The notes below the pieces were generated by a model. It was not told the DNA's origin, searched no databases, and worked only from the letters and a program-made list of their open reading frames with translations. DNA of 38,766 bases, from the NCBI GenBank assembly GCA_016188145.1, contig JACPIJ010000015.1:1-38766 (forward strand). Direction: 5' to 3'. This DNA is from Candidatus Woesearchaeota archaeon. Its GTDB lineage: Archaea; Nanobdellota; Nanobdellia; Woesearchaeales; UBA10216. Below, piece after piece: positions 13,935 to 36,165 of this stretch. The position numbers and the translations under genes were made by a program. Position 1 is the stretch's first letter, and each line of letters begins with the position of its first letter.

Positions 13935-14756
13935 ATGATTGTCAAAGAAGAGTTCCTCAGTAAGCTACGCACTTATTTCTCGCTTAATCTTTACGAAGTC
14001 AAAATCTGGACAGCACTCCTCTCGAGGGGGGTTGCTACCGCCGGTGAGTTGTCAGACATAGCCAACGTGCCCAGGAGCAGGAGTTATGATGTTCTTGAGA
14101 GCCTTGAGAAGAAAGGCTTTGTAATCATGAAGTTTGGCAAGCCGATAAAGTACCTTGCAGTTCAGCCCACAGAGGTCGTTGAAAGGGTTAAAAAGCACAT
14201 GAAGGAGGAATCGGAAAAGAAGATAAAAAGGCTTGACGAGGTAAGGAACACCGAGATAGTTGATGAGCTAAAGATGCTGCACCAGCAGGGGATAGAGCTT
14301 GTCGAGCCGGCAGACCTTTCGGGCAGCCTTAAGGGAAGGCACAACCTTTACAACCACCTCGACCTGATGATTAAAAACGCCGAGAAAACAGTGACGCTGA
14401 TGACGACCTCCCAGGGCTTCCTGAGGAAGATTGAGGGGCTGAAGCCAACAATGGAAAAGGTCAAGAAAAGAGGGGTGAAGATAAGGATAGCCGCCCCGAT
14501 TACAAAAGAGAACAAGCATGCCCTCGAGCTTATATCAGATGTTGCTGATGTCAGGAACACTGACGCAAAGGGAAGGTTCTGCATAGTCGATGGCAAGGAA
14601 ATGATGTTCATGGTCATGGACGACAAGGAAGTCCACCCAACATATGACGTAGGCATATGGGTGAACACGCCATTCTTCGCATCAGCCCTTGAAAACCTCT
14701 TTGAGGCAGCGTGGAAAAGCATGAAGCCGGCTATCGAGGTTGCGAGAAGGGTGTGA
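13935..14756 (+). CDS. TrmB-family transcriptional regulator
   Basis: N-terminal winged helix (LNLYEVKIWTALLSRGVATAGELSDIANVPRSRSYDVLESLEKKGFVIMKFGKPIKYLAVQPTEVVER) plus a C-terminal PLD-like TrmB domain. Confidence 0.88.
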   Translation: MIVKEEFLSKLRTYFSLNLYEVKIWTALLSRGVATAGELSDIANVPRSRSYDVLESLEKKGFVIMKFGKPIKYLAVQPTEVVERVKKHMKEESEKKIKRLDEVRNTEIVDELKMLHQQGIELVEPADLSGSLKGRHNLYNHLDLMIKNAEKTVTLMTTSQGFLRKIEGLKPTMEKVKKRGVKIRIAAPITKENKHALELISDVADVRNTDAKGRFCIVDGKEMMFMVMDDKEVHPTYDVGIWVNTPFFASALENLFEAAWKSMKPAIEVARRV

Positions 14757-14785
14757 CCTTCTTAGAAAGAAGGTCAATCAAGAAA
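14755..14785 (+). repeat. Hairpin with AATCAA-type tail, copy C1 (overlaps TrmB stop codon)
   Basis: GACCTTCTT-AGA-AAGAAGGTC followed by AATCAAGAAA; the first two bases belong to the TGA stop. Confidence 0.75.
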
Positions 14786-15083: not shown

Positions 15084-15206
15084 AAACAACAGAATTCCAC
15101 TCATCTATGATGAGTGGGGTTCTGTGTGCTCAAAAACCATATGATTCGTGGAATTCTGAGCGTCAAAAACTACATGCCACCGGTCTCTGACCGGTGGTTT
15201 TTGACA
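15084..15206. repeat. Two-hairpin repeat element, copy 1 (123 nt)
   Basis: AAACAACAGAATTCCACTCATC-TAT-GATGAGTGGGGTTCTGTGTGCTCAAAAAC ... CATGCCACCGGTC-TCT-GACCGGTGGTTTTTGACA; nearly identical to 36076-36165 apart from a 33-nt internal length difference. Confidence 0.9.
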
Positions 15207-15391
15207 AGCCATATGAATTAAGTCTGGAGGACAGAACTGTGGTGGGATTGACAAAGAATGAGCACAAAATGCTTGTGGTGTCAGCCCAACAACCAAACGG
15301 CAGCTGGCAGCGCACCACGCCGCCACTATACTGGTAAATCCTGAAAGAAGCCGCAAAACCTTTAAATAAGCACAGCGTGGATGGGTGGATT

Positions 15392-17023
15392 ATGACAACA
15401 GAGAAAACAGCAGAGATAGCAGCATCGCTGCACCGCTTGGAAAGGGCAGTGCTGCCCCATATCAGCAAGCTCAGTTCTGTGGAAGACGTAGTGGTGGCAG
15501 CAAGGATGCAGGAGGTAGAAGTTCTGCGTGCATTACAATGGCTCCAGAATAAGGGGCTTGCCAAGTTAACTGAGAAGATTGAGGAGATAATCCGGCTTGG
15601 CGAAAACGGCAAGAACTACGCGAAATCACTGTTGCCGGAAGCAAGATTCCTGAATTCTATTGCAAACAAACCACAAGCACTGGCTGAAATAAAAAAAGCG
15701 GCAAACCTCAGCGATGAGGAGATGGGCGCAAGCATTGGCGCACTAATGAGGATTAAAGCCATAGAACCTGTTGCGGCTGCGGCTGAAAAGACATTTAAAA
15801 TAACTGAAAGCGGAAGGCAGATTGCAAAATCAGGGCTTAGAGCACAACGATTCCTTTCCGGTCAAAATTTCCCGGTTGGCATCAATAACCTGTCAGGCGA
15901 GGAAAAGAACATTGTTACCGAGCTGAAAAAAAGGAAAGACGTAATAAAAGAAGATGTTGTAAAGAAAAGAACAGCATTCCTGACCGAGCTCGGAAAAGAA
16001 GTCCTGAAAAAAGCAGCCTCAGCAGCCGAGACGGTTGACAGGCTCACCCCGGAAATGCTGATTACTGGCAGGTGGAAGGAAGCAGCGTTCAGGAGCTATG
16101 ACCTTACTGCCCCTGTGCCAAGGGTATTCTTCGGGAAACTGCAGCCATACAGGGAGTTCCTTGAAGAGGTAAGGGAAAAGTTCGTTTCAATGGGCTTTGA
16201 GGAAATGACTGGCCCAATAGTTGAAAGCGAGTTCTGGAACATGGATGCCCTGTTCATGCCCCAGTTCCACTCGGCAAGGGATATTCACGACGTTTACTAC
16301 GTTAAAGAGCCGAAATACGCAACAGACTTGCCGCGGCAGTTGGTAAAAAAAGTAAAGGCCGCCCATGAAAACGGCTTTGGCACAGGAAGCAAGGGGTGGA
16401 GGTATGAGTTCAGCGAGGAGAAAACAGCTAGGCTCATAATGAGAAGCCAGACAACGGCCTGCAGCTCAAGGAAACTGGCTTCTACAGACCTGAAAATACC
16501 GGGGAAGTACTTTGCAATAGGCAGGTGCTTCAGGTACGATGTGATAGATACCAAGCACCTTGCGGACTTCAACCAGGTTGAAGGTATAGTTGTTGAGGAA
16601 AACCTAAGCCTGAGACACCTCATTGGCCTGCTCAAGCTCTTCGCAAAGGAATTCTGCAATACAGACAAAGTCAAAGTCGTGCCATCATACTTTCCATTCA
16701 CAGAGCCTTCAGCATCCCTTTATGCAAAGCATCCGGAGCTTGGATGGATGGAGCTGGGCGGGGCCGGGATTTTCAGGCCTGAAATGGTCAAGCCACTCGT
16801 AGGAAGCCATATGCAAATCGGACGAAGTCCGATTCAGCATCGGCAGCAGCCGATGCGTATCGACCCGAGGTCGATAGCACATTCCGCTTCCAGCGGAATT
16901 GTTCCCGTAATAGCGTGGGGGATTGGCATAGATAGAGTGGCAATGTTCAAGCTCGGGCTAAACGATATCCGGGAGCTGTTTAGCCATGACCTCAACTTTT
17001 TGAGGAACGCAAAGGTAGTCTAA
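15392..17023 (+). CDS. pheS: Phenylalanyl-tRNA synthetase alpha subunit with internal hairpin-encoded insertion
   Basis: N-terminal winged-helix region and class II core (GFEEMTGPIVESEFWNMDALFMPQFHSARD, ELGGAGIFRPEMVKPL, PVIAWGIGIDRVAMFKLGLNDIRELFSHDLNFLR). TATA-like CCTTTAAATAAG at about 15359 favours the start at 15392 over the ORF-track start 15377. Confidence 0.92.
   Translation: MTTEKTAEIAASLHRLERAVLPHISKLSSVEDVVVAARMQEVEVLRALQWLQNKGLAKLTEKIEEIIRLGENGKNYAKSLLPEARFLNSIANKPQALAEIKKAANLSDEEMGASIGALMRIKAIEPVAAAAEKTFKITESGRQIAKSGLRAQRFLSGQNFPVGINNLSGEEKNIVTELKKRKDVIKEDVVKKRTAFLTELGKEVLKKAASAAETVDRLTPEMLITGRWKEAAFRSYDLTAPVPRVFFGKLQPYREFLEEVREKFVSMGFEEMTGPIVESEFWNMDALFMPQFHSARDIHDVYYVKEPKYATDLPRQLVKKVKAAHENGFGTGSKGWRYEFSEEKTARLIMRSQTTACSSRKLASTDLKIPGKYFAIGRCFRYDVIDTKHLADFNQVEGIVVEENLSLRHLIGLLKLFAKEFCNTDKVKVVPSYFPFTEPSASLYAKHPELGWMELGGAGIFRPEMVKPLVGSHMQIGRSPIQHRQQPMRIDPRSIAHSASSGIVPVIAWGIGIDRVAMFKLGLNDIRELFSHDLNFLRNAKVV
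16816..16899 (+). repeat. Array of four perfect short hairpins inside the pheS reading frame
   Basis: AATCGGAC-GAA-GTCCGATT; GCATCGGC-AGCA-GCCGATGC; TATCGACC-CGA-GGTCGATA; ATTCCGCT-TCC-AGCGGAAT, all 8-bp stems, consecutive and translated in frame. Confidence 0.92.
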
Positions 17024-24334: not shown

Positions 24335-24360
24335 TTTTTGATTGACCTTCTAGAAGGTCA
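24334..24360 (-). repeat. Hairpin with AATCAAAAAA tail, copy D, filling the rpl6-rpl32e gap
   Basis: On the minus strand TGACCTTCTAGAAGGTCAATCAAAAAATG: a perfect GACCTTCTAGAAGGTC palindrome starting in the rpl6 TGA stop, with the A-tail running into the rpl32e ATG. Confidence 0.75.
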
Positions 24361-27753: not shown

Positions 27754-28209
27754 TTACAGCTTCTTCGTTATTACGAAATGCTTTGTCTTGCTCAACGGCC
27801 TGCATTCAAAAACCTCAACCTTGTCTCCTTCCTTTGCAGAGATGCATTCCGGATTATGGACTTTTATGCTGGAAAGCCTTCTTTCATAACGCTCATATTT
27901 CCTCATGAACCGGGTCCTTTCTATCACAATGTTGGCGGTTCCCCTCATCCTTGCAGACGTAATAACGCCAGTGAAATGCCTTCCGTGAAGCCTCAACCTT
28001 CCATGAATGGGGCAATTGCCATCCGTACATGCGGCATCCTGCTTTTGAGTGCCGCTCACGCCCTCAATGTCGCCTGCTGGCGACGAGCCAGCATCGGTAT
28101 CGACCGATGCATATCGACCAATGGCCGATATTCGCCTCTCCGGCGAAGTATCAACCCTGCTATCTGCCTTTGCCGCATTTGAGTTTTCTTCCTTTGTTCT
28201 CTTTGCCAA
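27754..28209 (-). CDS. rps17: 30S ribosomal protein S17 with hairpin-encoded N-terminal insertion
   Basis: Core S17 CTDGNCPIHGRLRLHGRHFTGVITSARMRGTANIVIERTRFMRKYERYERRLSSIKVHNPEC...; about 50 unusual residues precede it. Confidence 0.9.
   Translation of the reverse strand: MAKRTKEENSNAAKADSRVDTSPERRISAIGRYASVDTDAGSSPAGDIEGVSGTQKQDAACTDGNCPIHGRLRLHGRHFTGVITSARMRGTANIVIERTRFMRKYERYERRLSSIKVHNPECISAKEGDKVEVFECRPLSKTKHFVITKKL
28069..28147. repeat. Array of four short hairpins inside rps17
   Basis: GTCGCC-TGCT-GGCGAC; GCATCGGT-ATCG-ACCGATGC; ATATCGACC-AAT-GGCCGATAT (one mismatch); TTCGCC-TCTCC-GGCGAA. The last three align on the + strand with the last three hairpins of 16816-16899. Confidence 0.9.
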
Positions 28210-36075: not shown

Positions 36076-36165
36076 AAACAACAGAATTTCACTCATCTAT
36101 GATGAGTGGGGTTCTGTGTGCTCAAAAACCACATGCCACCGGTCTCTGACCGGTGGTTTTTGACA
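36076..36165. repeat. Two-hairpin repeat element, copy 2 (90 nt)
   Basis: AAACAACAGAATTTCACTCATC-TAT-GATGAGTGGGGTTCTGTGTGCTCAAAAACCACATGCCACCGGTC-TCT-GACCGGTGGTTTTTGACA; near-identical to 15084-15206. Confidence 0.9.

Follow-up and report, generated by a model that had tools for sequence, protein, structure and literature searches.

Palindromic inserts that lie in frame in many different genes have so far been known chiefly from Rickettsia and from organelles. The Rickettsia palindromic elements (RPEs) are dispersed palindromes found in frame in unrelated protein-coding genes, and no dedicated transposase is known for them (PMC10969869, PMC3733652). The double-hairpin elements of Allomyces and other mitochondria consist of two adjacent short hairpins and are thought to be mobile; such hairpin repeats of mtDNA sometimes lie within genes (PMC5910586, PMC2800124). 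A further point of comparison is IS608, a member of the IS200/IS605 group, in which a short guide carried by the transposon reads the target and cleavage sites by base pairing and in which transposition passes through a circular intermediate (PMC5934647). On elements of these kinds in DPANN archaea we found nothing relevant in the open literature, subscription papers being outside the search.

Here we describe two hairpin arrays, in pheS and rps17, from a 38,766-nt stretch of DNA (the window), which is one contig of the 1.18-Mb genome G000 of a Candidatus Woesearchaeota archaeon. We think it likely that both are copies of a family of tiny, non-autonomous mobile insertions of Woesearchaeota, referred to here as double-hairpin inserts. 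Their lifestyle resembles that of RPEs and their anatomy is closest to that of the mitochondrial double-hairpin elements, while length, end tags, flanking repeat and a rule that ties the centre of the element to its flanks are different. As with RPEs, insertion is in frame into unrelated protein-coding genes (nine of nine measured inserts). Whereas RPEs are bacterial, measure ∼150 bp and carry a CGTC tag at one end, the archaeal inserts are 48 or 90 nt long, end in CA..TG and are built of two hairpins, with a centre that is complementary to the 2-nt repeat at their flanks. With the mitochondrial elements they share a putative mobile unit of two adjacent hairpins; the Allomyces elements, however, were reported without flanking duplications (PMC2800124), whereas the archaeal units have the 2-nt repeat and follow the flank-centre rule. 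Like miniature elements of the MITE type, they are short and non-autonomous and have direct repeats at their ends, but there are no long terminal inverted repeats around a spacer, only the CA..TG ends and a body made of two successive hairpins. No published description of such a self-matching design of centre and flank was found. In our own judgement, units of 48 nt rank with the smallest mobile units to have been proposed.

Hairpin arrays in pheS and rps17

The pheS array (16816-16899) comprises four perfect hairpins, A to D, and is the sole cluster of perfect stems of at least 7 bp in the window; when folded as RNA, it has a z score of −6.75. PheS alignments break at about residues 478/509 in all seven congeneric genomes, which lack 30 residues there, and at the nucleotide level the empty site was found in five congeneric genomes, G005 reading GGAAAACATGTCCCTGTA where G000 reads GGAAGCCAT-(90 nt)-GTTCCCGTA. 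The right-hand copy of the flank (16902-16903) is TT, one base off TG. We observed that the pheS insert is a basic unit, described below, plus an extra 42-nt two-hairpin module, CA-B-G-C, placed between hairpin A and the linker (Table 1). The flank rule of the unit does not extend to the B-C module, for which no repeat marking its ends was found. The peptide encoded by the insert matches six other places in G005 and G007, which are further hairpin arrays; all four hairpins are present in five of the six, and these arrays occur in both orientations, mostly outside recognizable genes. In a structure model of PheS that is only moderate in quality (mean pLDDT of 72.9), the insert (residues 478-505) is predicted as a low-confidence stretch between two elements of the predicted core, a helix (468-475) and a strand (511-517), a position consistent with a tolerated surface loop. 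That the coding inserts are translated as a surface loop is our inference and has not been shown.

Table 1. Features of the pheS and rps17 arrays, in window coordinates
Feature	Positions	Strand	Basis
Host gene pheS, phenylalanyl-tRNA synthetase alpha	15377..17023	+	Pfam PF01409
pheS 90-nt (30-codon) insert, absent from PheS of 7/7 congeneric genomes	16811..16900	+	ortholog comparison
pheS insert, equivalent reading as 88-nt element plus 2-nt repeat	16814-16901	+	
pheS left flanking dinucleotide, xy = TG	16812..16813	+	rule from empty sites
pheS hairpin A, AATCGGAC-GAA-GTCCGATT (hairpin 1 of basic unit)	16816..16834	+	fold, stem scan
pheS 42-nt B-C module, between hairpin A and central linker	16835..16876	+	stem scan; 48+42=90
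pheS central linker GCAC (x'y' = CA, reverse complement of flank TG)	16877..16880	+	
pheS hairpin D, ATTCCGCT-TCC-AGCGGAAT (hairpin 2 of basic unit)	16881..16899	+	fold, stem scan
Host gene rps17, ribosomal protein S17	27754..28209	-	Pfam PF00366
rps17 ~90-nt segment absent from closest ortholog (G004)	28062..28151	not given (coding strand -)	length difference between anchored positions
rps17 hairpin E, GTCGCC-TGCT-GGCGAC	28069..28084	+	sequence, fold
rps17 GAGC, probable central linker (G-x'y'-C, x'y' = AG)	28085..28088	+	inferred from architecture rule
rps17 42-nt B-C module, CA-(GCATCGGT..ACCGATGC)-A-(TATCGACC..GGCCGATA)	28089..28130	+	sequence, covariance-model match
rps17 hairpin B, GCATCGGT-ATCG-ACCGATGC	28091-28110	+	sequence
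rps17 hairpin C, TATCGACC-AAT-GGCCGATA	28112-28130	+	sequence
rps17 hairpin F, TTCGCC-TCTCC-GGCGAA	28131..28147	+	sequence, fold

On rereading the sequence, we found the coordinates (28069-28147) and letters that the first-pass annotation of this DNA had given for the rps17 array to be correct. Its RNA fold has a z score of about −4.1 on either strand relative to dinucleotide shuffles, and only hairpin B passes the perfect-stem cut of at least 7 bp. The first-pass annotation had also proposed that pheS and rps17 have four hairpins in common, in the same order. We trained a covariance model on the pheS array together with five copies from relatives and kept rps17 out of the training; the model recovered rps17 in the same orientation as pheS (33.3 bits, E value of 1.6e-5), and since it had been built without rps17, the resemblance between the two arrays exceeds chance. 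The homology is clear for the B-C pair only, that is, for the 42-nt module CA-B-G-C; here the compensatory C:G to T:A change described for the B stem is indeed present, and the C stem of rps17 has one uncompensated A.C mismatch. The proposed correspondence therefore stands for B and C but not for the outer hairpins, as E and F show no sequence homology to A and D of pheS.

Compared with that of G004, which has the most similar ribosomal body, the S17 of G000 has exactly 90 nt (30 codons) more, and the array falls inside these extra 90 nt; the flanks are too diverged to do more than infer the exact ends of the segment. For the probable linker GAGC, there is a matching flank, CTCA, at 28063-28066 (xy = CT), and the right-hand flank is eroded. 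To this extent rps17 departs from the full flank-centre rule, and no base-by-base alignment of its empty site is possible. We infer that it is an older, eroded composite like pheS, carrying the same 42-nt B-C module. In G007, the N-terminal extension of S17 likewise contains a B-type hairpin pair, but a different one, which is lacking in the close relative G005.

The 48-nt unit and the flank-centre rule

The copies in G000 can be reduced to a basic unit, xy-CA-hp1-G-x'y'-C-hp2-TG-xy, in which two adjacent hairpins are joined by a 4-nt linker. The body of the unit (CA-hairpin1-G-x'y'-C-hairpin2-TG) measures 46 nt between the two copies of xy, and the target gains 48 nt (16 codons). The flanking dinucleotide xy is usually CA, TG, TA or CG, and x'y' is its reverse complement; alignments A3 and A4 show CA..TG ends, with xyCA and TGxy as the hairpin feet. 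Insert length has its mode at 48 nt (45-51), with pheS at 90 nt. This double-hairpin unit, the composition of pheS as unit plus 42-nt module, and the rule that connects centre and flanks had all been missed in the first-pass annotation. Copies L147 (G000:C14), L145 and L146 form a subtype with a GGGCCC centre and CCC..GGG feet, distinct from the 48-nt unit.

An alignment of 28 copies is 98.2% paired and contains 38 compensatory (doubly changed) cells versus 9 expected from shuffles, a number that none of 500 shuffles reached; in the same alignment, the linker pairs with the left flank just as well as with the right one. We then considered a set of 83 units, which are the 85 detected minus two spurious ones and include three (L120-L122) from outside the genus. 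In 77 of them the centre is the reverse complement of both flanks, as compared to a mean of 22.4 and a maximum of 38 in 10,000 shuffles. Of the 45 units with non-palindromic centres, 41 fit the rule, and in none is the flank identical to the centre itself. Outside the genus, a scan made without requiring the rule gave 42 units, of which 41 obey it (36/36 plus 5/6) with mostly unrelated hairpins, several of these units being near-identical copies within G109 and G010. As a signature, the flank-centre rule is exact and independent of sequence, and since units elsewhere in the phylum keep it with unrelated hairpins, the family is defined by its architecture. One hairpin pair in G165 occurs in two forms (L314 and L315), one with centre TG and CA flanks and the other with centre TA and TA flanks, showing that a lineage is not bound to one centre.

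Matching arms and centres could also arise from template switching during replication (quasipalindrome correction), which would make and homogenize the hairpins; any insertion mechanism would then suffice, and the centre would not be a guide. With one arm or the flanking dinucleotide as template, the polymerase would rewrite the imperfect partner, with the result that arms and centre always match. This process, whose homogenizing effect on inverted repeats is documented (PMC7202029, PMC8604942), accounts both for perfect arms with double changes and for related hairpin pairs with different centres that each match their own flank. By itself, however, it leaves unexplained both the clean 48-nt insertions, whose empty sites can be recovered, and the presence of one sequence at unrelated loci, and we regard it as an unlikely explanation that still has to be reckoned with. 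It is the chief competitor of a guide role for the centre, since the flank would here be copied into the centre only once insertion had taken place. It could be acting on top of transposition.

Filled sites, empty sites and reading frame

Comparison of filled and empty sites reveals a 2-nt direct repeat, xy. In a radical SAM gene, the filled site GAG-TG-(46 nt)-TG-CCAC corresponds to GAGTGCCAT in G004, and in the gene of a YfcE-like phosphoesterase, AAA-TG-(46 nt)-TG-CCC corresponds to AAATGCCC in G005. The site in RLI/ABCE1 (GCA-TA-(46 nt)-TA-AGC) is filled in G000, G005 and G007 and empty in G004, while that in SufS (CAG-CA-(46 nt)-CA-GCTG) is filled in G007 and G004 and empty in G000 and G005. 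GatA (CAA-CA-(46 nt)-CA-ACTG) has a clean empty site in orthologs, and for Hel308 (AGG-CA-(46 nt)-CA-GTT), the empty site is that of the second Hel308 of G000, a paralog. Slightly different lengths were found in Trm1 (43 nt plus CA, 45 nt in all) and in a gene for a polytopic membrane protein in G000:C14 (L147), which has a 51-nt relative with the GGGCCC centre. No exact empty site is available for the phosphoesterase of G000:C68, an FAD protein, a Bud32-like kinase, a further Hel308 and a methyltransferase, where the loop is too variable or there is no ortholog. The copies are patchily distributed (that in RLI is missing from G004, and that in SufS is confined to G004 and G007), which points to transfer among species, to precise loss or to repeated insertion. 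As a separate observation, the two Hel308-like helicase genes, one with and one without the insert, belong to a single bin (G000:C41 and G000:C74).

Copies are located between genes, within the hairpins of other copies, and in frame in conserved genes. Units nested in the loops of B hairpins serve as internal controls, since taking out 48 nt yields a perfect 20-nt B hairpin again, GCATCGGCAGCAGCCGATGC in L097 and L163 and GCATCGGCTGTTGCCGATGC in L086. An outer palindrome, GATAAGGGC..GCCCTTATC, surrounds units L081, L089, L113, L156 and others; it is apparently a further hairpin repeat, used here as the target.

The nine coding inserts that could be measured against orthologs, pheS included, are 45, 48, 51 or 90 nt long, and all keep the frame and are free of stop codons; five further coding lengths, which bring the list to 14, were read from unit anatomy and were not used. 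Among unrelated proteins, several frames and both strands of the element are used, and its consensus is stop-free in all six frames, in agreement with the earlier suggestion that either reading orientation remains open. A copy in G165 is in frame within a HicB-like protein, between GLPG-C and HTQA (named by eye; there is no Pfam match). Because non-coding copies are also mostly 48 nt long, compatibility with the frame may be a by-product of length.

Strong mRNA hairpins and the tolerance of inserts in conserved essential genes would also be expected if the inserts were never translated, being either spliced from the RNA by archaeal splicing or bypassed by the ribosome like the byp elements of yeast mitochondria. 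Neither process would require inserts that are in frame or stop-free, yet nine of nine are both; moreover, a bulge-helix-bulge motif was not seen at the ends, only single-base bulges, although this rests on inspection without a dedicated search. We consider removal or bypass very improbable. Conserved structure with covariation could likewise point to functional structured RNAs or protein-binding sites kept for regulation. This is hardly credible given that presence at the same site varies among close relatives, that hairpin sequences are swapped wholesale between genera, that copies sit within unrelated genes on either strand, and that Rfam contains no matching family. Regulatory RNA and chance were both rejected, on the basis of presence/absence and shuffles. 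If the coding copies are mobile insertions, as we favor, then they shape core proteins of uncultured archaea (PheS, S17, RLI, GatA, SufS and Hel308), and for annotation this means that what looks like a loop or an extension in a DPANN protein may be an insert.

Distribution, possible mechanism and candidate enzymes

Model R2 matches all eight genomes of the Woesearchaeota genus, with 48 matches in G000, 73 in G007 and 55 in G001 (both strands counted). Outside the genus there are single matches in four genomes, three of which (L120-L122) follow the rule with different hairpins. The architecture-based model R3, which has only the left of the two pairings built in, finds units in 23 of 196 genomes of the order and 29 of 333 of the phylum, two being outside the order, in the same class. 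A scan of 85,462 GTDB genomes for the exact pattern returned only Woesearchaeota MAGs and one contig filed as Diapherotrites, and IMG/VR has no exact match to the unit pattern. These results support the view of the first-pass annotation that a structure-based element is dispersed here: dozens of copies are spread over 8/8 congeneric genomes, with clean presence/absence at orthologous sites and preservation of the frame. It would have been refuted if a genome scan had found only two instances without polymorphism among relatives, or if the hairpins dissolved in close relatives while the peptides were conserved; neither was the case. The high copy number in G109 was examined as possible recent jumping of units, a reading that was rejected since a 264-bp MITE-like repeat containing two units has been amplified. 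This carrier (L279-L297) has terminal inverted repeats, GGGCTCTGTAGAAAGT, and more than 10 nearly identical copies.

The mobility of the units rests on comparative evidence, as transposition has never been observed and the mobilizing enzyme has not been identified. As a serious possibility, put forward tentatively on the basis of unit anatomy, the element may move as a 48-nt single-stranded DNA circle whose centre guides target choice, in the manner of IS200/IS605. The ends of the unit would join in this circle and create GxyC, which would pair with the central Gx'y'C. Because the joined-end GxyC is the exact complement of the centre, the circle would fold into a single DNA dumbbell, and circular DNA folding predicts a dumbbell with centre-junction pairing for 78 of the 83 units. 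The centre would act as a guide by pairing with the target dinucleotide, as in IS200/IS605, which would explain why flank and centre match; the right-hand xy may then belong to the element, with the left-hand xy representing the target. An enzyme, whose identity is not established, would act in trans. The likeness to IS608 lies in the single-strand end hairpins; a guide that pairs with the target would be in keeping with a centre complementary to both flanks (77/83), but cleavage has not been observed. Unlike IS200/IS605 elements, the inserts have no transposase gene, and 48-nt units cannot encode TnpA (Y1 HUH); they also have one putative 2-nt guide common to both ends, as well as a direct dinucleotide repeat. 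They differ from REP/RAYT systems in the absence of a GTAG tag, in their hairpin feet and in the lack of an association with Y1_Tnp.

Another reading is that the units are ordinary non-autonomous IS200/IS605 derivatives, REP- or PATE-like, moved by a resident Y1 tyrosine transposase. The hairpins, the short target, the absence of long terminal repeats and a pairing like that of the IS608 guide (PMC5934647) would all be in keeping with this, and G000 and G002 have a Y1_Tnp gene. Nevertheless, Y1_Tnp (PF01797) is not enriched, being present in 9 of 23 element-bearing genomes versus 74 of 196 genomes overall (Fisher p = 1), it was undetected in G007, the genome richest in copies, and a TnpA-sized parent element with these ends was not seen, so that we find this reading rather improbable. 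Resolvase (PF00239) is found in 1 of 23 element-bearing genomes versus 40 of 196 and likewise shows no positive association with copies. The linked transposase or recombinase that the first-pass annotation had proposed to look for was not found, and neither Y1_Tnp as linked mobilizer nor a serine recombinase of the IS607 type is supported by an association with copies. Since the genomes are incomplete, the absence of enzyme families is weak evidence.

It is possible, if somewhat doubtful, that the inserts represent a distinct class of transposable element, namely a gene-less 48-nt dumbbell whose single central dinucleotide is a rewritable guide, complementary in every case to the site of insertion, served by an undescribed single-strand DNA enzyme and spread through an archaeal order, in frame in essential genes. 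The rule makes the spread of gene-less palindromes testable, in terms of which enzyme cuts the folded unit and whether the target is read by the centre or copied into it.

The window contains other repeats as well. A second, unrelated intergenic hairpin-pair repeat, CCACTCATC-TAT-GATGAGTGG ... CCACCGGTC-TCT-GACCGGTGG, occurs at 15090-15200 and 36080-36160 with ∼88 nearly identical bases, the copy at 15090-15200 having ∼34 extra central nucleotides. The palindrome TGACCTTCTT..AAGAAGGTCA recurs at 14754-14776 and 24343-24360, and in L003 (perhaps also in L039), a large hairpin array apparently lies within the loop of a similar palindrome. At the end of the contig (37500-38729, minus strand), the gene for an ATP synthase alpha/beta-type subunit (V/A type) contains an intein (Pfam Intein_splicing, LAGLIDADG_3).
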